Positions 44,817-62,310 of a stretch of 64,000 nt of DNA are shown in pieces; position 1 is the stretch's first letter, and each line of letters begins with the position of its first letter. The stretch spans positions 8,225,726-8,289,725 of the forward strand of contig NC_087074.1 in the NCBI RefSeq assembly GCF_026151205.1, in the 5' to 3' direction. The notes under the pieces were generated by a model, which worked only from the letters and a program-made list of their open reading frames with translations, made no database searches and was not told where the DNA came from. A program made the position numbers and the translations under genes. Source of the DNA: Bolinopsis microptera (lineage: Eukaryota > Ctenophora > Tentaculata > Lobata > Bolinopsidae).

Positions 44817-46241
44817 CTAAAGTTTGAGAGCCTGCATGTAAGGTCTTATATCAAGTCCGGGATACCTTGCACCAAACCATTTGATGTTATCTTCGTTCCA
44901 GTACTCATGACCAGGTTTTGGAATGCCAAGCAGTGCTCTCTGTTTTGGTGACAACTTCATGAGCACACTTTCTACCTTACCATAATAATTCCATTTTGAC
45001 CAAGCAGGGTTCCAGGTTAAGTGCCAAAAACTGTCTCTCTTCTTCCATGCTATATTGATAACACTGCGTTTGTGTCCTACATTAACAGGTGTTCCTCGGT
45101 GCCAGACGTCGTATCTGTATAGCAAAACATCTCCAGGCTTATAAATTGGTATTACCTTGTAGGAAGAAGCTTTTATAAGTTTTGATATAATTAATTACAC
45201 ATTGTCAATTAGATCTACACCGTTACCAAAAGGTTGTTAATTCTGTCAACTTACCTCCCTGTCATAAATCTTTTTCCTGAATTGTGCAATTTGTGGGTGT
45301 TTTTCTTCAAAGTATCTTTCTGTATGACTCCGATCATTGTAAAACTCCCAGTGTCCACCGATTCCTGGCATGTTAATGTAGGGGGGTTTGTACAGTTCAT
45401 CATCTTCACCTTCTCTAAAACATACTGCAGTTCCTCCGCCAGTTATCTCTAATGGGATATTAATTAACTGTGAAACAGTGTACTATATGGCATCATTATT
45501 GATCGAAAGTCTGTATGATGCTACATATAATAAGGGGTGCCCATATTTAAAGCAAAGTTTGTGTTTAATGATAAGATGTCATAAAACTGTTGGGAAAGGG
45601 AAAATGTACCAGTATCTGCAAGGTAAGCAATAGCCGCCACATTTTCAGGCTGGTTCCAAGGTGTTGGATGTAGGAAAGTGTTATTGCCATAGTCCATGTG
45701 GAACCTCTGATCATTGTTCTGCTGTGCGCCAAAATCACTGTGTCCCGCTTTACACCACCCATCACTAAAATATATAGTTATAATTATGGAAATATTATAT
45801 GGCATGCTTGCTTTTGAACACATTTATTCAGTTTGTGCCAAATGCCAACAAATTTGTCAACAATTGCTCAGCCTTTCAAATATCTCAAGGCGAAAGGGAG
45901 GAACGGTTACTAATTATTAAATATGATTACTGGAATGATCATATTAGAAGATTTATTGAATACCTTTGTGCAAGGAGAATATCAGGAGTTCCCAGCAACT
46001 GTGATACAGCATCAATCAACTTTTCGTGAGTGGTGACATCATCCAGGTCATTACTAGTTGGAAATTCACATTTCCCATCCGATCCAAAATCTCTGCTGAC
46101 ACTGTCCTTGAATGTGTCCAGCATTATCTGTTTACATGATTCTACAAGAGCTGGCTCCAGAAGACCAGAGACGACTACATATCCCCTTTCTTGCCATTGA
46201 GTTACTTGTTCCTTACTTAACGGTCCTTGAATTTTATTCAT
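44817..46241 (-). CDS. Phytanoyl-CoA-hydroxylase (PhyH) family 2-oxoglutarate/Fe(II) dioxygenase
   Basis: Four - strand exons, 46241-45964, 45764-45610, 45448-45255 and 45155-44817, join in phase to 966 nt and give 321 residues plus TAG. The N-terminus reads MNKIQGPLSKEQVTQWQERG, with the GYVVVSGLLEP that opens the PhyH fold. The iron-binding triad is H115-x-D117 (FHMDYGNNT) and H228 (DVWHRGTPV), and R239 (GHKRSVIN) would hold 2-oxoglutarate. Length and motif spacing are normal for the family, so the enzyme should be active. Family members hydroxylate CoA esters or other lipids and metabolites; the substrate cannot be told. No peroxisomal targeting signal was recognised at either end (C-terminus MQALKL). 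The gene is head to head with the acyl-CoA ligase, with about 1.2 kb between start codons. Confidence 0.92.
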
Positions 46242-47446
46242 ATATCCTGGTATTTAATTCATGTGTTATTTGCGTGCTAAAGAGCTAGTATTTAAATATA
46301 AACCAATGTTTCTTTCAAATGGAGCGAATTTTACTACAATCAATAGAGGGTGAATCTTGGCAAATGAAAAAGTCCCTCAGGAAAACACAATTTTTTAGGA
46401 AATCACAATTTTTTAGGAAAACACAATTTTATTATTCATCACCAATTTAACACAAAGAGTTGAAATATGTTCAAAAACATATGAATTGCAAGCCTAACAA
46501 CAACATGAACAGTTTTCAAATTTGTCCCCATTTGGTTCCAAATTTATGGATTTATTTACTGGAACTGAGACGCCGCGCTGTTAACACAATTTAGCGAAAT
46601 TTAAACCGGTATATTAAATTTCATAATTGTATTACCGTATCAGGGAAGAAAAATAGCACTTAATTGTTTAATTCAATTTTTTTTCAATAATATTATGGCG
46701 GTTTTAAAAAACTGGTAATCAGCTATGGGGTTGTTCACATATTATTACGTAATCAATATTTTAGCAATTTTTTTACCCCCCCTCCCCATCCATAATTTCA
46801 TAATTGTATTACCGTATCAGGGAAGAAAAATAGCACTTAATTGTTTAATTCAATTTTTTTTCAATAATATTATGGCGGTTTTAAAAAACTGGTAATCAGT
46901 TATGGGGTTGTTCACATATTATTACGTAATCAATATTTTAGCAATTTTTACCCCCCCTCCCCCATCCATAATCAACTGTTATCAGTTGACTTTTTTCCCT
47001 AGAAAACACCTTTCTCGATACGTTTCATGCTACCCTGATCATGCTATCATGATGAGCCGAAATCATTGTTATGATATCCGGCCAAGCACCTTCTAAAGTC
47101 TAAACTACTTACTATTATAGCCGGATATTCGATCAATTTCTAAATTTTATCAGAGTGAAATTGAGTGGAATTTGAATTAAAATATTGGGTAAAAATGAAA
47201 ATGTTGATTACGTAATCCAAACCCCCCCACCCCCGTAATCAACTGTAAGGATTTGGAAACCCCTCCCCCTCGGCTAATTTTGCCAGGCCCCAATGCCTTG
47301 AGTGGAATTCTTCGGTTGCTGGAAATTGCATTCCTGTATAATCATACTTTGTATTATATTCTCGTATCTCCATTGTGCCTAAAGGCTCCTTGTGTAATAC
47401 TGTTTCTTCAAAATGTGAAATTAATATAACAACAATATTAAGCAGA
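46242..47446. promoter_or_regulatory. Shared divergent upstream region of the oxygenase and acyl-CoA ligase genes
   Basis: This 1.2-kb stretch separates two divergent start codons and must contain both promoters. It holds a 177-bp tandem duplication (46618-46971) and C-rich runs with GTAATCAA/TTGATTAC motifs near 46780, 46950 and 47225. No TATA box or named factor site could be assigned. Confidence 0.45.
46618..46971. repeat. 177-bp tandem duplication
   Basis: Two adjacent copies starting ATTTCATAATTGTATTACCG at 46618 and 46795 are almost identical over 177 bases, including a stretch CACATATTATTACGTAATCA and a CCCCCCTCCC run. The duplication looks recent. Confidence 0.9.
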
Positions 47447-50400
47447 ATGAGATTTCCACCACCAGCACTTCAAGCGTCAAAGATTCTGTCTAGAGGACTC
47501 CTGACATCAACCAGAAAATCCTTCCCCCCTCAAAATGCCCTACTTCACAAGTTCCTTCTTCCCTTTATGTCAGATAACGCTGAAAGAACTGCCATCGTAA
47601 GTAATTGAGTACGTGTTACAACTACTGAGACCTCGTATCTTTAGGTAGACTCATAGTACTAATTAAATTACAATTGAAAAAAGCAAGAACAGTTCTATGA
47701 TTTATATGCATATTCTCCATAACCCAGTTCACTCCCTAAATCCTTATGGTGATCATTCCAGATAGACTACGAGACCAAAGCCGAGCTTACCCACGGTGAA
47801 ATAGCAGAAAATGTGGGTAAAATAGCTCGCAGGATGATAGATTGGGGTGTAAAACCTGGTGATCACGTGGGACTGAGTTCGTTTAACCACTTGTACTACT
47901 TCCCCTTACAACTGGGCATCATGGCTGCTGGGGGTCGGGTGGCTCTGTGTAATCCTGGCTATACAGGTTAGAACAGTTTGTAGTGTCAACCTCTCATAGA
48001 ATCCAAAACGGACAGGACAGGACATGACATAGGCGGACATTGGCGGACGTGTCACTGTCACCCCCCCCCCCCCTTCTATTGCTCGACAAGTAAATTATGT
48101 GATACACTCTCCAATTCTCTCGATTTTGCCAGGTAGAGAAGTGGACCAACTGTTCCAGACTGCTGATGTCACCAGAGCTATTGGACATCCTAAAAATGCA
48201 GATGCAATAAAAGATACTTCTAAACGACAGGGTCTTCCAGAACCCCTAGGTATTTGTAGATTTTATTTATTGCTTATAACATCACAGAAGATCTGTAGCT
48301 GAGGAATCGTACATCTGAATGAATGACCTGAGATCCCAGTTATCGTGAATTTTCTATGACATCGAAATAAAAAATCACAACCTAATTGACCACACTTCCG
48401 CAGACATATCAAACATCATCGAAGAGAGCAAGCATTACTCCTCTGAACTACCCGACGTGGAGATGGGTATACACGATACCTGTGCCCTGTTTTACAGCAG
48501 TGGAACTACTGGCTTCCCCAAAGCGGTGGAGATTACCCATGATAACTTCGTGAGCCAGTGCATGTTGCTGGATGATCCGGGGTGCTTCAACTTTAGTATT
48601 GATACTGTTAATGTGAGTAGATTGTTCCTGGTTCGGTTATTGGTGTTGATAATCTTACCTAGGGTGTATTATTATATAATACAATAATATTACGTTTCGA
48701 AAATTTTTCAATGAATGTTATACGCTGATATTAATTGCTCACACTATTTGTCTACAGGTAGGCAATGAGTTTATTATCTATAAATCAAAACACAATTTAC
48801 CTGAACGAAATTATAATTTCCTAGTTTTTCCTTGTCATTTTACTTGAAAATATGTGCATGCATATTAAGGACTTTTGTTCAGAACGGATTTCTGCCCTCG
48901 TTTCACGTATTTGGAAGTGTTGTTGGTGCACATGTACTTCACAAAGGAGCAGCCTCTGTAATGCTCGATGGGTTTAATCCCCTGACCTTCCTTGGTGCTA
49001 CCCAGGATTACAAGGTATTGTCTGGAGATATTGTTTAAATTATATCTAATACATATCACACAGCATGGGTTTCTCCCTTCATTCCACCTGTGGGGCAATG
49101 CTGTTTTCATGCATCTTTTAATGAAGAGCGGACTCTCCGTTCAAATGGAATCTTTTCAACCGGAAGTGTTCCTTGAAGCAACACAACACTATAAGGTTAT
49201 AATAATTATCCGATATAAAGATATAATTTTATTTTTGCAGAATAAATACAGACCACAGATTCGGCTGTTTTTGCACTCATAATGAAGCTCCTCTACGCTA
49301 TCAGATTCTTAACACGTGGTATTTTCAATTACTCCTGCAAACATTAACCAATGTTTCATATCACTCTGAATGACAACTACTCTCTCTCTCGCCAGGTCTC
49401 CTTCGCAACGGTAGTACCCCCAATAATGGTATTCCTTGCCAAACACCCCCTGGTGGACAACTACGAGCTGTCCAGCCTGCGGGACCTGGTCTGTGCTGCT
49501 GCGCCGCTCTCTGAACAATTGGAGAATGAAGTTAGAACCAGGTTAAACAACGATAAGCTCAACTTCCGTCAAGGTATACTTCACTTTCAGATTCATTTTC
49601 TTTGCCTTATCAGCTATGTACTCAAAGACGGATTTTAAGATCTCAACATTTTTATCACGTGGACAGTTTGGAGGTACAGACTGAGACTAAGTAAATAAAG
49701 TAACGTAAACTACTAGCTATTAAAACTTTAGGTTACGGTCTCTCGGAAACTACAGCTGTATCCCACCACGTTAATAGAGACACGGGGAAGGCTGGTTGTA
49801 TAGGGGGCACTGCTAAAAACACTGTTTCCAAGGTCATTACCCAATACCCACTACCCAGACTATCATAGAATAATAATACAGACCTTGCTGGCATGGTGCT
49901 GTTCCCTTCTTTGTCTTTTAAAATATAAATTACACACATTCTTATGTGGAAATACTTGTTCAGTGTCTCATATTATATATTATTGAGTGGGCAAATAGGT
50001 ACAATACCGACCGGCTATAAACCAGTACAGCTGTTAGAGGGCTATTAGAGGGCTATTAGCCGGTTAATAGCTGGTCGGCATTGTAACTATTTGCCTATTG
50101 AGTGTATCATGCAATAATAATATTTGAGTGCTTGTGATCTTCAATTCTCAATTATGTGATCAAATGCCAAACGGCAAACTGTGAGATTAGGATAGGACCC
50201 TTTGTCATATTATGGCCATATTATAATTCTTTGGGTCATAATTTTCCAGAATAGCCATAAAACGAGCGCTTCGTCCCCTTAGAAATCTAAAATGGTTTAA
50301 AACTGCATGTCAATTTCGATCCAATCTAAATTAATTATTCATAGAAAACTGATCAAGCAACACTAAGATATAACAAATAATTTGAGCCTATTATTATGCA

Positions 50401-53400
50401 ATGAGGGCGACAAGCTTGAAGCTGGCTGGAGGTGGTTCGTAGTCCCCAGCATAGCAAACATGGGCTTCATTTGTTAGTGTTCTAGTAAGAAATCTTATAA
50501 CAGTTAATACAAATCGCTGCATGGTCGATTGTTTGACGATCAATTTTGAAGTTCATGCCATGCATATTATTCAGACTCAGAAATTTCGAATCTTAATAAT
50601 GCAGGGGGACTTGGGATTCAGTGGGCTGGAGATTTGGAAACTTAGGAAGAACTTTAGCCCATGGGAATCGGGAGAGGAAAAAACTTCAGGGTCTGCCGGG
50701 TTCAGGGTTGCATCCCCGAGGAAGCTATGCTTTCATAACCAATATCTGCTAAAAGATTGCTAGATTAAAAGTCTCGCATTCTGACAAGTTCGCTATTTTC
50801 TCAATAATATATTATCTCGGTTGTAACAAGATGTCACGTGCAGGTTATGGCCTAGGTGAGACAACGGCCATATCCCATTACATGACCCGAGGGCTGGATA
50901 AACCAGGATCCATTGGTGGTATTTGTAACAATTCTGAGACCCAGGTTACCGGTGTTATAATGCATGGGGTTGTCATGGCGTTGTCATGGAGCTGTCATGG
51001 GCCTGATTTTATATTACACGTGGTAAAATGGTCACAGCTCAGCAAGCCGCTGTCCCTGAAATAATGCAATGCATGATATCCTGAATTATCTGTACCAACT
51101 AGTGGGTGTAACATAAAAACCTATAATTTTTTAGCTTTTTTTGTGGCAGAATGTATCATGAAATATTATGTAGAAACCAAATGAAATGAAATTAAATGAA
51201 ATCAGTCGCATAGTTGAACTGTTTTCTTGGGTAATTTTCTATCGATCCCGTTTGATGAGACAAGGAAAAGGCTCTTATCAGGACCGGAATTATTCAACGT
51301 TTCAATGTGACAACATCGTATTCATGATGAATGGAGTTATGGATATTAGTATAACCGCAGTATTTAGTAATTAGTATAACCGCAGTAGGACTAACCCCCC
51401 TACAGCTAGTATAGTGCCTCGGCACAGAGTGGCTTAGGGTTACCGAAAAGGAGATACTGATAAGCACCTCAGGCCATTCCAACTTGTATCTTGTTGTTGT
51501 ATAACCGCAGTAAGTTGATAGTAGTAATTAGTAATTAGTATAATTAGTAAGTTGATATAATGAAGTAACAATACGTGCCCAGGGTACGGCCTGAGCGAGA
51601 CTACAGCAGCGTCACATTACTTAACTGCTGGCACAGTTAAAGCAGGAACTATTGGTTCTATAGGCAACAATTCTCTAACCAAGGTTACCCGTGAGGCTTC
51701 CTGATCGAGAGTGGTTAAGTTCATGAAATATTACGTCTTAGAACCTCTTTTCTGGCCACACTTAATTTAAATCATAAAATAAAATCATTCTTTAAATCTT
51801 TTCTTTCAGTTTGCCGGATTATACGATTACATGAAATAAATTCATATAGATTGGAGCATCTTTTTTTGTTGAGTACTTTTATAGTGTGTTTTGTGGTAAT
51901 CGACAGGGGGAGGGGGATGGTCTGAAAATCTGCGATTTTGGCGGACGTCCTAAGTAGATGGCCCCTTAAACTTTATATTTGGATGAAGTCTCTAGGATGT
52001 AAAGCTAGTCTGAATCGAAGATATTTGACTTACGACCAATTTGTTGGCTAAAAGCTATTTTATATGCCATATGGACCATACGCCATATATGGGCATTGTG
52101 TAGTTCCTCATAACACTGTAATCTCTTATAATCTAAACTCAGTGAAGGGGGTTTGTTACCCGTCAAGCCCTATCCTGTTGGTGAAGGTTGACCATTAGCC
52201 ACCACTAATGCTGATGTAAGAGAGGTGTACTCCAGCAATCTTGTACATCAGGCTATGCCAAATGTTAGGTTTAGCACTAACTCAAACTTCTTTACATAGT
52301 CGAACTAAGTTATAAATCAATTTAACCGAACTGAATTATACAAATTGAGTTTAGTAATTAATATAACCGTAGTAATTAGTAATTCTAGTATAATTAGTAA
52401 GTTGATATAATGAAGTAACAATACGTGCCCAGGGTACGGCCTGAGCGAGACTACAGCAGCGTCACATTACATAACTGCTGGCACAGTTAAAGCAGGATCT
52501 ATTGGTTCTATAGGCAACAATTCTCTAACCAAGGTTACCCGTGAGCTGCCTGCCAAATTACGTCTTAGAACCTCTTTTCTGGCCACACTTAATTTAAATC
52601 ATAAAATAAAATCATTCTTAAAATCTTTTCTTTCAGTTTGCCGGATTATACGATTACATTAAATAAATTCATATAGATTGGAGCATCTTTTTTTGTTGAG
52701 TACTTTTATAGGATGTTTTGTGTTAATTAAGAAATAAGCTTATTTTAGCCACACTTTGACATTCGATGAAGCATAATATGGAATGAAATGAGCTTTGAAA
52801 ATCATTATAAGGCCAGATATGTATCAAACGTTTCCCTATAAACCTAAAACTTTAAGCAAATGTTTTGAAAAGTACAGTTGTGTTAAATTAGGCAAATTAA
52901 GATATTGGCGGTTATTTATTGTATAGTAATTTAACCTGTCATTGCCTTGTTAGTGTATAGTAACTATCGCTGATACTTATAATATAATTTAAGGGAAATG
53001 TTCTACAATAATGCTGAATAAGTAAATAGCTGAATAACCTGTTAACCTGTATCCAGTCTAAGTAAGTTAAGTTCGTATAGTTATCCAAGTTGACATATTG
53101 TGCTCTGTGCAGGGTACGGCTTGACTGAGACAGGAGCAGCCTCACACATGCTGGTCCGTAAAGTTAAACCAGGATCTATTGGTTCATTATGCAGCAATTC
53201 TATCAGCAAGGTTATCCGTTTGCTGTCTAATGGAGAGCGGCCAAGTCCATGATTTGTTTTTAAATGAAAAACATATCTCATAGCTTCTTTTGTTTCCATG
53301 ATTTATTGAAATCATAAAAATATATAGCTTAAAACAGTTTCATTGCCGAGGTCACTTGTGGCTATCGAAAAAAATAAGCTTATTTCGACCGCATTACATT

Positions 53401-56159
53401 TTACACTAAAAAGGAATCAATGCAAGAGTGCTGTTAAAGTGCTGTTAAATCGATTGTTAATCAATCTTTTAATCACTGTTGGTTAATCAAAAAGAGATGT
53501 TTTTATCGGAAAATCGTAGTGTTTTTATTTCTAAGTGTTATTGCTTTTCTTTAACTTTATTGTCTGTTTCATGAACATTGATTACTGAATAGCATAAAAA
53601 ATTGCATGAAAAAAATGCATGACAAAATTGCTGCATTGTATATTGTACATGGCGTGGGTAATTACAGTAGACAGTACATTGTAAATATTACAATATTTTG
53701 ATTTTATAAGCTAACCTCTGCCTGCTTCACAATAGTAATTACAAGGCGAGCTAACTGATTTGCTGGGTCAGGTGGTAGATCCGGAGACAGGTAGAGAGTG
53801 CGGTGTAAACGAGCCTGGAGAGATCTACATCAAGGGACCCTGCGTTATGAAGGGCTACTACAAAAATCCTAAAGCTAATGCTGGTAAAACGCTTTTACAG
53901 TTTATTTTAACAGATGTCACGTGCCATGTTGTCACTGTTACGTTCAGAATTCATCAATCATCACGTGTCATTCTGAAATGCCCTATACTCAACGACGATT
54001 CACGTTTAAAAGCTCTTCAAACAGCTATATTACCGAGTCTTAGTTGCGTGTTATTTATAATTATATTAAATGTACTAAGTTTGACATAAATTTCCCAGAA
54101 ACTTTTACGGATGATGGTTTCCTAATAACTGGAGATATTGGGTACTACGACGAAGACGGCGATTTCTTTATCGTTGATAGGCTGAAAGAGCTTATTAAAG
54201 TTAAAGGCTTTCAGGTAAGTTAACTGAACGTATTTCTATCGTATTTTCATCGTATCCAAACTAAGTACTAACACTTACAAATTTATTGAGCTTATATCTA
54301 CTGGCCAATTATTAATTTGTAACATGATTAACAAGAAAGAAGTATGGGACCAATACTTGTTGCAGACTCTCTATTACAAGATTTTACAAACTATGATCTT
54401 ATCATTTATGTGTTTCAAGAACTCCCTCAGCTCCATACCATTTATTATCATACCAATCTGGAATCTGGGCTGTCTCCACTAGCAGCTCTATTGATTCGGT
54501 TCAGGGAAATTTTACATTTCTTGTTGAATCATTAGCCGACAGAAAATGTCCGGAAATGTGAGAGGCTACTTTATTTGTCATTAAACTCGTCGGGCCAGTG
54601 CCTACATTACACACTGATAGTGTTAATGTAATTATTCAAACTATGCTATGATAACATCCCATGAGAGCTTACGAACGAGGAATATTTCCAGGCGAGTGTA
54701 TGGAGTAGAATGTTCAGTGGTCACTACATATTATCCATAATATTTATGTGTGCCGTTCAGTAACAGTTCACACAAGAATTAAAATAACTTGAAATTCTAA
54801 TCTGCTCAACTGGATTTACTTGAATGCTAAGCCTCCCCATCCTTTTAAAATGATATACCACTGTATTATATTCACACAAAACAGGTATTTACTTCTGCCC
54901 CCTCATTTTAACAACCCCTCACCAACAGGTATTTACTTCTGCCCCCTCATTTTAACAACCCCTCACCCACACAGGTCGCACCGGCTGAACTAGAAGCACT
55001 TCTCCTAGAGCATCCCCTGATCGCTGATGCTGCAGTGATAGGCATACCCGACGAAAGAGCCGGAGAGAGACCTAAAGCTTTTGTAGTGAAACAACCGGGG
55101 GCTGATCTGGGGGAGGAAGGGGTGAAGAGTTTTATTGGGGAACACGCCTCGGATTACAAGATACCTGCCGAGGTTGGGAATACTTGATCAGCTGGTTTTA
55201 GTTTTCTGGTTTTATAAAATATGCCGTGGAGTAAAACGTGCTTATTGACCTTGGAAATTGTTATACTTATCATGATACCCATAATGAAATAATAGACGAA
55301 GTTACCTAAAATCAGGATTATATTACATGTTACCTAAAATCAGCATTATAAATCAAGAGGCTTGCATATAATGAACATATTGACATGGGTGCAGAGTTGA
55401 GTCTGTACGGAACCTAGTAGTTATATCATATTATGGAACAAGGCAATTTTAATTCACAAGGAAAACAAATCTTATAAGAAGATAAAAAACAGTTTAAAAA
55501 CGAAAAGTTTTACTTACAAAAAATCTGGAAGCAAATGTTTACCGGAAATAAAATTTCGCAAAGTCACGCACTTCACCGTGTCGTTATCAGTTATCAGGCA
55601 TCTTGAGATTCTACAGTTGTCTAATATTAGGCGGCATGAACAGATTGAACATGGGAAAAACGCGGAAATTTATAAAATTATGGAATGCATAATTACATTT
55701 GCAAAAAATGCAATGGGTCGAGACACTTAATGAACCGCAGGAAACGTACCGTAACAGTATATCGAGTTGGGGACCCCTACTCGCGGTGTCCTTAATCAGA
55801 TTACACAACTTTTTATTATCAGCTGGTGTAGGTTTCCAGATTATTGCATATTTTAATTTGGTGTCTACAAGGAACGTTGGACGTGCAACTGATTTGAATT
55901 AGAATTACATTGTTTTAACATTCAAATTTAGATACATATAGATCTCAAAATCATGTTAGATATTAATCCACAATCCACATAATATTTCAGTCTTGAATGA
56001 TTGGTTTTAGTTTAAAATGGGTTTGGTAAAGCTGTAGTTTAAAAACTCAAATTTCCCAAGGTGGAGTTTATTGACATGATCCCGAAGCTACCAAGCGGTA
56101 AAATACAGAGGAAAGTGTTGCGTGCAAGTGAACAAGCGAAACGGGACGCAAAGCAATAA
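47447..56159 (+). CDS. 4CL/luciferase-family acyl-CoA ligase with two arrays of mutually exclusive exons
   Basis: Constitutive exons are 47447-47596, 47762-47966, 48133-48249, 48404-48612, 49396-49573, 53772-53883, 54099-54214, 54975-55172 and 56061-56159. To these are added one of two A4 exons and one of five A5 exons (listed separately). Any choice with a 101-nt A5 exon gives 538 residues, the usual family length. Motifs: [10 protein letters not shown] (188-197, P-loop), FLPSFH (H235), GYGx[TSG]E (331-336), VVDPETG, TGD (414), [13 protein letters not shown], and PKLPSGK (K520, the catalytic lysine). It should form acyl-adenylate from ATP and then acyl-CoA. The N-terminus is basic and Ser/Thr-rich ([13 protein letters not shown]), perhaps mitochondrial. 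The C-terminus AKQ is not a PTS1 signal. The substrate is unknown. All splice phases agree. Confidence 0.94.
48883..49014 (+). CDS. Ligase A4-segment exon, version 1
   Basis: 132 nt, phase 0 to 0, reading [17 protein letters not shown], then [18 protein letters not shown] and the donor AAG|GTATTG. It corresponds to the luciferase/4CL segment around the conserved histidine that helps shape the acyl pocket. Version 2 begins only 49 nt downstream. Confidence 0.88.
49064..49195 (+). CDS. Ligase A4-segment exon, version 2
   Basis: 132 nt, phase 0 to 0, reading [17 protein letters not shown], then [18 protein letters not shown] and the donor AAG|GTTATA. It has the same length and boundaries as version 1 and keeps the FLPSFH and ATQ-x-YK anchors. 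It differs at about half of the other positions, so it is a diverged tandem duplicate and not a pseudo-exon. Confidence 0.88.
49732..49832 (+). CDS. Ligase A5 exon, version a
   Basis: 101 nt, acceptor AACTTTAG, donor AAG|GTCATT. It reads [18 protein letters not shown], then [15 protein letters not shown]. It enters in phase 1 and leaves in phase 0. It has Ser where the family usually has Thr before the Mg-binding Glu. The donor is the weakest looking of the five. Confidence 0.87.
50844..50944 (+). CDS. Ligase A5 exon, version b
   Basis: 101 nt, acceptor CACGTGCAG, donor CAG|GTTACC. It reads [18 protein letters not shown], then [15 protein letters not shown]. It has Gly at the position of the phosphate-contacting Thr. 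Phase 1 in, phase 0 out. Confidence 0.87.
51583..51683 (+). CDS. Ligase A5 exon, version c
   Basis: 101 nt, acceptor CGTGCCCAG, donor AAG|GTTACC. It reads [18 protein letters not shown], then [15 protein letters not shown]. It is almost identical to version d, in the exon and in the flanking intron, so this pair is the youngest duplication in the array. Confidence 0.87.
52433..52533 (+). CDS. Ligase A5 exon, version d
   Basis: 101 nt, acceptor CGTGCCCAG, donor AAG|GTTACC. It reads [18 protein letters not shown], then [15 protein letters not shown]. It differs from version c at two residues only (Leu/Ile and Thr/Ser). Confidence 0.87.
53113..53210 (+). CDS. Ligase A5 exon, version e
   Basis: 98 nt, one codon shorter than the others. 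Acceptor CTGTGCAG, donor AAG|GTTATC. It reads [18 protein letters not shown], then [15 protein letters not shown]. It is the only version with the canonical Thr-Glu pair, so it is likely closest to the ancestral exon. It is also the one nearest the common downstream exon 53772. Confidence 0.87.
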
Positions 56160-59714: not shown

Positions 59715-62310
59715 TTGCCTAGAGTGGTGGGTCTGCACTTGAGAAGAGTGGGTCTGGTCGCTAGAATGGTGGGTCTGCAATCTAGAAGTGGGTCTGGCAA
59801 CCAGAATGATGGGTCTGTACCCTTAAAGAGTGGTCTGACGACCAGAGTGGTGGGTGTGCACTTGAGAAGAGTGGGTCTGGCAGCTAGAATGGTGGGTATG
59901 CAATCTAGAAGTGGGTCTGTTAACCAGAATTGTGTGTCTACACCCTTGAAGAGTGGGTCTGACAACCAGAATGGTGGGTCTGCACTTGAGAAGAGTGGTT
60001 CTTGCGGCTGGAATGGTGGGTCTGCAATCTAGAAGTTGGTCTAGCAACCAGAATTGTGGATCTGCATTCGAGAATAATGAGTCTTCACTCTAGAAGAGTG
60101 GGTCTGACAACCAGAATGGTGGGTCTGCACTTGAGAAGAGTGGGTCTGGCGGCTGGAATGGTGGGTCTGCAATCTAGAAGTTGGTCTAGCAACAGAATTG
60201 TGGATCTGCATTCGAGAATAATGAGTCTTCACTCTAGAAGAGTGGGTCCGGCAACCAGAGTGGTGGGTCTGCACTTGAGAAGCGTGGGTCTGGCCGCTAA
60301 ATGGTGAGTCTGCACCCTTTAAGAGTGGGTCTGACAACCAGAATGGTGGGTCTGGACTTGAGAAGAGTGGGTCTGGCAGCTGGAATGGTGGGTCTGCAAT
60401 CTATAAGTGGTCTGGCAACCAGAATGGTGGGTGTACGTACACCCTTGAAGAGTGGGTCTGACAACCCGAGTGGTGGGTCTGAACTTGAGAAGAGTGGGTC
60501 TGGCAGCTGGAATGGTGGGTCTGCAATCTAGAAGTGGGTCCGGCAACCAGAATGGTGGGTGTACGTACACCCTTGAAGAGTGGGTCTGACAACCAGAGTG
60601 GTGGGTCTGCACCCTTGAAGAGTGGGTCTGACAACCAGTGTGGTGGGTCTGCACTTGAGAAGAGTGGGTCTGGCAGCTAGAATGTTGGGTCTGCAATCTA
60701 GAAGTGGGTCTGGCAGTTAGAATGGTGGGTCTGCAATCTAGACGTGGGTCTGGCAACATGAATGGTGGGTCTGCACCCTTCAGGCTTAAAGAGTGGGTCT
60801 GACAACCAGAGTGGTAGATCTGCACTTGAGAAGTGTGGGTCTGGCAGCTGGAATGGTGGGTCTGCAATCTAGAAGTTGGTCTGGCAACCAGAATGGTGGG
60901 TCTGCACCCTTCAGGCTTCAAGATCAAGAGTGGGTCTGACAACCAGAGTGGTGGGTCTGCACTTGAGAAGAGTGGGTCTGGCAGCTAGAATGTTGGGTCT
61001 GCAATCTATAAGTGGGTCTGGCAACCAGAACGGTCGGTCTGCAGTCTGCACCCTTAAAGAGTGGGTCTGACAACCAGAGTGGTAGATATGCACTTGAGAA
61101 GAGTGGGTCTGGCAGCTGGAATGGTGGGTCTGCAATCTAGAAGTTGGTCTGGCAACCAGAATGGTGGGTGTACGTACACCCTTGAAGAGTGGGTCTGACA
61201 ACCCGAGTGGTGGGTCTGGACTTGAGAAGAGTGGGTCTGGCAGCTGGAATGGTGGGTCTGCAATCTAGAAGTTGGTCTGGCAACCAGAATGGTGGGTTTA
61301 CGTACACCCTTGAAGAATGGGTCTGACAACCAGAGTAGTGGGTCTGGACTTGAGAAGAGAGGGTCTGGCAGCTGGAATGGTGGGTCTGCAATCTAGAAGT
61401 TGGTCTGGCAACCAGAATGGTGGGTGTACGTACACCCTTGAAGAGTGAGTCTGACAACCCGAATGGTGGGTCTTCACTCTAGAATAATAGGTCTGGTGGG
61501 TCTACACTTTAGAAGAGTGGGTCTGGCAACTAGATTGGTGTGTCTGCAATCTATAAGAGTGGGTCTGGCAACCAGAATAGTGGGTCTGCAATCAAGGGAA
61601 TCAAGATGAGTGAGTCTGGCAATCAGAATGGTGGGGCTGCACCTTAGGGTAGTGGGTCTGGAAACAAGAATGGTGGGTCAGAATTCTTGAATTGTGGGTC
61701 TTCACTCTAGCTAAGAGTGGGTCTGGCAACAAGAATGGTGGGTAAGAATTCTAGAATAGTGGTTCTTCACTCTAGAAGAGTGGGTCTGGCAACCAGAATG
61801 GTAAGTCTACACTCTGTCAAGTGTCAACCAGAATTGGGGGTCTAAACTAGAATATAGGATATATGGCAACCAGAATTGTGCGTCTGGAGTCTAGAGTCTA
61901 GAATAGTGGGTCCGGCAACCCGAAAGGTGGGTGTTCACTCAAGAATAGTGGGTCTGGCAATCGGAATGGTGCGTCTACACTCTAGAAGAGTGGGGCTGGC
62001 AACCAGAATGGTAGGTCTTCGCCTTAGAAGAGTGGGTCTGGCAACCAGAATGGTGGGTCTGCATTTTAGAATAGTGGGTCTTGACTCTGTACCTACTAGA
62101 AGAGTGGGTCTCCTCTCTAGAAGAGTGAATCTGGCAACCAGAATGGTAATTCTTCACTCTGTCAACCAGAATTGGGGGTCTATGAACTAGAATATAGGAG
62201 ATATGACAACCAGAATTGTGGGTCTGGACTCTAGAATAGTGGGTCTGGCAACCAAAATGTTGAGTCTGCACTCTAATAGAGTGGGTCTGGCAACTAGAAT
62301 GCAGACACGT
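59715..62310. repeat. 2.6-kb GT-rich tandem array with ~33-bp subunits
   Basis: Hundreds of bases of related units, each close to AGTGGGTCTGGCAACCAGAA followed by TGGTGGGTCTGCA and TCTAGAAG. They are arranged as higher-order groups (CACTTGAGAAGAGTGGGTCT, GGCAGCTGGAATGGTGGGTC, GCAATCTAGAAGT...). The first two thirds are regular and the last third more diverged. Units are near multiples of three, so both strands show long false open frames (up to 207 codons on the - strand). Confidence 0.92.

Follow-up and report, generated by a model that had tools for sequence, protein, structure and literature searches.

Two clusters of candidate alternative exons, for the A4 and A5 segments, in an acyl-CoA ligase gene of the ctenophore Bolinopsis microptera

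A 64,000-nucleotide stretch of the Bolinopsis microptera genome (contig NC_087074.1, positions 8,225,726 to 8,289,725; hereafter the window, with positions counted from its first letter) carries on its forward strand, at 47447-56159, a complete gene predicted to encode an acyl-coenzyme A (acyl-CoA) ligase of the ANL superfamily. Two exons of this gene, both encoding parts of the active-site wall, are duplicated in tandem: the exon for the A4 or gate segment is present twice and the exon for the A5 motif five times. We consider it likely that the copies are spliced as alternatives and that the choice among them tunes the acyl preference or the rate of a single ligase.

The five A5 exons (copies 1 to 5) lie at 49732-49832, 50844-50944, 51583-51683, 52433-52533 and 53113-53210, between the common exons 6 (49396-49573) and 8 (53772-53883). 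They are 101, 101, 101, 101 and 98 nucleotides (nt) long, copy 5 being one codon shorter, and each is bordered by an AG acceptor and a GT donor. Their translations follow the pattern GYGL[STG]E...SH..., with 14 residues invariant across the five (GYGL, E, T, A, SH, K, G, IG, N). A preliminary description of the window, made from its letters alone, had placed the five exons and the two common borders, at 49573 and 53772, at these positions, and all were recovered. Exon 6 ends in phase 1 and exon 8 starts in phase 0, and every A5 copy enters in phase 1 and leaves in phase 0.

From these phases it had been argued that including none or two of the copies breaks the frame and that exactly one must be chosen. 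All 32 inclusion patterns of the A5 copies were enumerated with exon 5a in place, and a full frame was obtained in 5 of them, all with a single copy (5/5). No full frame resulted from zero (0/1), two (0/10), three (0/10), four (0/5) or five copies (0/1). Inclusion of four copies, which by summed length alone would keep the frame, is ruled out because copy 2, 3, 4 or 5 runs into a stop at codon 4 when placed after another copy. As all other combinations lose the reading frame, exactly one of the five A5 exons would be taken per transcript, and transcripts with a wrong combination would presumably be destroyed by nonsense-mediated decay. The homology and equal phases of the tandem exons, their frames, the constraint among copies 1, 2 and 3/4 and the presence of a single such exon in two paralogs together support the proposed reading of the cluster as a mutually exclusive array.

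The A5 copies are concentrated at this locus. Across the genome (264.65 Mb, 232 contigs), the exon-start pattern AGGNTAYGGNNTNNSNGAR, i.e. a G-Y-G-x-x-E opening after AG, had 20 matches and the reversed pattern 25. Five of the 20 lie within 3.4 kb at the array, which is not expected by chance; of the others one is at a paralog on contig C2, two are 4 kb apart on contig C1 and twelve are single. The two C1 matches (C1:15343274-15347370, minus strand) are on one strand and read GYGIGE and GYGMGE. A search with the copy 3 peptide (E up to 10) returned five places, all at this locus; as it did not pick up the A5 exons that the C2 and C9 paralogs are known to have, it sees close copies only. With a hidden Markov model of six A5 exons, run over 53 loci of the same genome, no place with two A5-like exons was found outside this gene, with the limit that most loci spanned only some 3 kb and that several AMP-binding loci went entirely unmatched, so that distant arrays could be missed.

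At least 17 AMP-binding matches, some of them pieces of one gene, were present in the genome, 14 of the 62 candidates having been scored. Of the multi-exon paralogs, the two nearest, at 10.70 Mb on C2 and at 2.71-2.73 Mb on C9, have one A5 exon each, of 34 residues and with the same borders as in the array. No array was found in either by motif search and tblastn, which showed a single A5 and a single A4 exon in each. Because both paralogs have one such exon with the same borders, the array appears to have arisen by repeated duplication of one old exon within this gene. Beside the C9 paralog, at about 2731690 on the minus strand, a frame reads like an enoyl-CoA hydratase, as judged by eye from the translation.

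The preliminary description listed the five A5 copies correctly, but it missed a second cluster; the C-terminal exon at 56061-56159 is a further addition. This second cluster, directly upstream of exon 6, consists of the doubled A4/gate exon, 5a (48883-49014) and 5b (49064-49195), each 132 nt long with phase 0 at both ends. The encoded segments are 52 % identical, 21 of 44 residues being different. Only 49 nt separate 5a from 5b; elsewhere in the ligase gene neighbouring exons are 154 to 1011 nt apart. Too-short introns are a known cause of exon exclusion, and the spacing by itself might hinder the joining of 5a to 5b. We infer that 5a and 5b are alternative exons and that their use is mutually exclusive. 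With two A4 exons and five A5 exons, ten isoforms would be possible (2 x 5 = 10 predicted proteins); use of copy 5 would shorten the product by one residue.

Both clusters fall on the acyl pocket. In a tabulated overview of the superfamily motifs, A4 is given as an aromatic portion of the acyl pocket, and A5 as the element for positioning of ATP (adenosine triphosphate) and binding of magnesium (PMC8388817). Docking in firefly luciferase named nine pocket residues: His245, Phe247, Thr251, Ala313, Gly341, Thr343, Ser347, Ala348 and Ile351 (PMC8268740). The preliminary statement that the A5 segment contacts AMP (adenosine monophosphate), magnesium and the acyl pocket agrees with these sources, A5 being both an ATP/magnesium motif and a pocket wall (PMC8388817, PMC8268740). 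Firefly numbering was transferred from the matched ranges of 1ba3 (6-214 to 242-448), with a two-residue gap placed as in an alignment of ancestral luciferase. By this alignment the two clusters hold eight of the nine positions (245, 247, 251, 341, 343, 347, 348, 351) in 78 of 538 residues, and the remaining one, Ala313, falls in common exon 6. The enrichment (P = 1e-6) is only a guide, because the test treats residues as independent and pocket residues are clustered in sequence.

Four pocket positions vary between copies: 247 is F/W in the A4 pair, and in A5 copies 1 to 5 position 343 is S/G/S/S/T, 348 is V/I/A/A/A and 351 is H/Y/Y/Y/M. Positions 245, 251, 341 and 347 are invariant among the copies. 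In 76 of 80 bacterial relatives, position 348 was V in 36, I in 25, L in 6, A in 3 and another residue in 6, and position 247 was Tyr in 73 and Phe in 3. Glycine in copy 2 and tryptophan in exon 5b are unusual. As the fatty-acyl-CoA synthetase CG6178 carries Ser at 343 in the alignment, Ser343 in copies 1, 3 and 4 is compatible with activity. In firefly luciferase, F247S is reported to alter the use of a substrate analogue (PMC6122825).

Comparison of the copies suggests that most of them are old and have been maintained. Copies 1, 2 and 3/4 differ pairwise by 0.62-0.83 synonymous and 0.22-0.29 nonsynonymous changes per site, and 5a and 5b by 0.87 synonymous and 0.34 nonsynonymous changes per site. 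Rough Fisher tests on rounded counts gave p = 2e-6 for copy 1 versus copy 3 and p = 2.5e-7 for 5a versus 5b. Because synonymous differences are high and nonsynonymous differences modest, these exons are old and constrained, their frame, splice sites and core residues having been retained even though synonymous change neared or reached saturation. When 49196-53771 was compared with itself, similarity reached beyond the exons only in the two blocks that contain copies 3 and 4, in a short repeat that precedes each of them, in a single inverted repeat and in brief stretches flanking copies 2-5; copy 1 had no DNA match to the other copies. The inverted repeat, imperfect and located at 49990-50095 in the intron after copy 1, matched 36 times across the genome, with some places counted on both strands. 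It is therefore more likely a small, dispersed palindromic repeat than an element that acts in splicing.

Copies 3 and 4 have a different history. Their blocks (51521-51900 and 52369-52727) are 90.6 % identical over 382 columns, and the exons differ at 2 of 101 positions, both nonsynonymous, compared with 13 of 256 aligned flank positions (p = 0.25, not significant). Copy 4 is evidently a recent duplicate of copy 3. For copy 5, synonymous and nonsynonymous differences were 0.93 and 0.39 per site against copy 1, and 0.60 and 0.33 against copy 2. These comparisons argue strongly that copies 1, 2 and the 3/4 pair are functional, and less strongly that copy 5 is.

Several observations weigh against alternative splicing of two functional clusters. 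The choice between 5a and 5b is not enforced by the frame, since a transcript with both or with neither stays in frame. Within the A5 exons variation is not enriched at the pocket (3 of 5 pocket positions vary, versus 17 of 29 others), and in the A4 exon 1 of 3 pocket positions varies, versus 21 of 44 residues overall. Position 343 is Thr in 76 of 76 bacterial relatives and Gly in copy 2, which may for this reason be weak in activity. Copies 3 and 4 encode nearly the same protein. Between copy 5 and copies 3/4 there is no clear synonymous excess (nonsynonymous differences 0.33-0.34 and synonymous 0.46-0.58 per site), and the identity of copy 5 to copy 3 is 0.73 in the exon and 0.69 and 0.74 in the adjacent 40-nt flanks. 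Finally, in three scans of this one species no docking and selector RNA pairing stood out from the shuffled controls, of which 10, 10 and 7 out of 12 attained the observed value.

Some of these points would fit a locus in which only one or two A5 copies are used, the others being decaying or neutral duplicates that are in part spliced at noise level. The two nonsynonymous changes between the recent duplicates 3 and 4, the lack of a clear purifying signal in copy 5 relative to them and the unusual A5 residue of copy 2 all point in this direction. We nevertheless regard such a graveyard of exons as unlikely, as all five copies retain the frame, the splice sites and the 14 invariant residues, and the protein change among copies 1, 2 and 3/4 is modest beside their large synonymous change. 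The sole length change, in copy 5, is a whole codon, and a tblastn search with the exon peptides detected no A5 relic in the intervening introns.

It could also be that the exons are alternative but that their role is regulatory, skipped or doubly spliced transcripts being non-productive and setting the amount of enzyme, with equivalent isoforms. Although 27 of the 32 inclusion patterns lack a full frame and the products of copies 3 and 4 are almost the same, such a switch would not need five distinct copies, and copies 1, 2, 3/4 and 5 differ mutually by 32-50 % in protein, with constraint evident for 1, 2 and 3/4; we therefore find this explanation very improbable. An assembly artefact, in the form of collapsed paralogs or a false tandem duplication of alleles, is the least credible explanation, since it has in its favour the two similar blocks of copies 3 and 4, as allelic false duplications can look, whereas the divergence of copies 1, 2 and 5 is deep and the searches described above turned up no further set of such exons elsewhere in the assembly. 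At most one copy, of the 3/4 pair, seems open to this doubt, and for that pair an allelic false duplication was not supported by comparison of the spacer between the two blocks with the sequence after the second, which gave short chance-level matches only (best E 0.074). Misjoined paralogous genes, a possibility raised in the preliminary description, likewise found no support, as near-identical matches to the common exons occurred at this locus only.

The preferred reading, one ligase gene with two sets of alternative exons, is consistent with the anatomy of the remaining gene, which runs from exon 1 to exon 11 with AG acceptors and GT donors at its internal borders. Exon 1 (47447-47596) contains the start codon and a presequence-like N terminus, and is followed by exon 2 (47762-47966, with AG/GT sites), exon 3 (48133-48249) and exon 4 (48404-48612), which encodes the A3 P-loop. 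Downstream of the A5 array and exon 8, exon 9 (54099-54214) includes TGDIGYYD and the hinge/A8 region. After exon 10 (54975-55172), exon 11 (56061-56159) encodes the C terminus with the A10 lysine (PSGKIQRK) and the stop codon, and completes the gene.

The spliced protein has 538 residues and matches AMP-binding (PF00501) with 236.3 bits and AMP-binding_C (PF13193) with 67 bits, the Pfam cut-offs being 29.9 and 24.5 bits. The ligase motifs are present, i.e. the ATP loop SSGTTGFPK (A3), the A5 glutamate in all five A5 copies, the hinge/A8 region and the A10 lysine. Its closest solved chains were 4-coumarate-CoA ligase (4CL) 2, presumably the tobacco enzyme, fatty-acyl-CoA synthetase CG6178 and luciferases. 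CG6178 is described as a Drosophila fatty-acyl-CoA synthetase (PMC3098103). By its domains and motifs the product is predicted to be a 4CL/luciferase-like acyl-CoA ligase of the ANL superfamily that forms acyl-CoA in an ATP-dependent manner. Among the first 41 residues six are R/K and none is D/E, a composition suggestive of a mitochondrial presequence, and the enzyme is probably located in mitochondria.

A gene resembling PhyH (phytanoyl-CoA dioxygenase) lies at 44817-46253 on the minus strand, head to head with the ligase gene at a distance of about 1.2 kb. The joined exon pieces matched PhyH with 24.8 bits (cut-off 22), while the three lone pieces had no Pfam match at E 0.001. The PhyH-like gene may share a promoter with the ligase gene and may point to a branched-chain acyl substrate. 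Where the divergent promoter is presumed to lie, between the two genes, a 177-bp unit occurs twice in tandem (46617-46972; 97 % matches). Elsewhere in the window, 59721-62301 holds long tandem arrays whose periods are 21/42 bp and of higher order (in the slice 60001-62000, GC content is 0.51 and GC skew 0.32), and Rfam gave zero matches in the whole 64 kb. In the genome at large, the glutamate-receptor ligand-binding family had 32 matches on many contigs; 10 matches each lie in one uninterrupted open frame of at least 900 codons and are apparently intronless there. A glutamate-receptor stretch of this genome matched, at E up to 1e-10, just four distinct chains of the PDB, three of them named ML032222a iGluR, from Mnemiopsis, and the fourth from Pleurobrachia, in good agreement with a ctenophore source.

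In the mechanism that we propose, each transcript would take one of the two A4/gate exons, kept apart perhaps by the 49-nt interval, together with one A5 exon. The ten isoforms would share the scaffold, the ATP loop, the hinge and the catalytic lysine, and would differ in the shape of the pocket and in the A5 residue beside the adenylate, from which differences in acyl substrate preference or rate could follow. It is possible, though we put this forward only tentatively, that the 2 x 5 splicing code rewrites both pocket walls such that a single ctenophore gene serves as a small enzyme family, with substrates according to cell type, stage or diet.

The locus bears on the extent of mutually exclusive splicing in ctenophores, which, along with one other group, are candidates for the sister group of all remaining animals (PMC10232365). 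New substrates in enzyme families are usually gained via gene duplication; here, exons were seemingly duplicated inside one gene, at two pocket segments, and the remainder of the enzyme was left untouched. If the isoforms differ in substrate, they would constitute a natural set of active-site cassette swaps.

The ACSL enzymes form a separate subfamily of the ANL superfamily. In human ACSL6 and ACSL1 the fatty-acid gate domain is encoded by either of two mutually exclusive exons (PMC1543647, PMC2868784), and with ACSL6 the exon switch at the A4 position is reported to change activity, while a form without the gate had no detectable activity (PMC2868784, PMC1543647). These too are acyl-CoA synthetases in which paired exons encode the A4/gate segment, the part of the protein to which 5a/5b correspond here. 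However, the ACSL gate motif is given as D-x4-(F,Y)-LPLAH-x2-E, whereas the present ligase reads GF-LPSFH. At the F/Y position by which the ACSL6 forms differ, 5a and 5b both have Phe, and the F/W difference seen here lies two residues after the His. The available parts of the ACSL papers describe two copies of the gate only, of 26 residues, and mention no A5 array, whereas here a 44-residue A4 exon is accompanied by such an array. Because it has FLPSFH without LPLAH, and its nearest solved chains are 4CL2, CG6178 and luciferases, the ligase would be a functional parallel to the ACSL gate switch and not an ACSL member.

Other parallels are more distant. In coq-2 of C. elegans and helminths, the mutually exclusive exons 6a and 6e are tied to a substrate switch (PMC7434440). 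There too such exons remodel the core of a metabolic enzyme, but the enzyme is another one, the exons are two and they were seen in RNA. For Mhc2, a myosin gene of the ctenophore Mnemiopsis leidyi, mutually exclusive exons near the nucleotide site of the ATPase have been predicted (PMC3912159). It shares with the present case the ctenophore origin and predicted exons by the nucleotide site, and differs in having two copies and in encoding a motor protein. The exon clusters of Dscam1 are far larger than those described here. Insect Dscam1 resembles the ligase gene in having several clusters per gene and a combinatorial choice of one exon per cluster, but it encodes a cell adhesion molecule, and RNA structures have been proposed to control the choice there, none of which were detected here (PMC8042237).

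Among the matches listed from open-licence PubMed Central, no title or abstract start described an A5 array of several copies or an acyl-CoA ligase with two exon clusters, and none of the listed literature matches described a larger exon array in a metabolic enzyme. The novelty suggested in the preliminary description accordingly holds for the A5 array within these matches, but not for alternative exons of acyl-CoA synthetases as such, which are known, as a pair, in ACSL1 and ACSL6. Mutually exclusive exons and the ACSL gate pair are thus the known part of the system described here; the A5 array and the presence of two clusters in one acyl-CoA ligase are apparently its new part.

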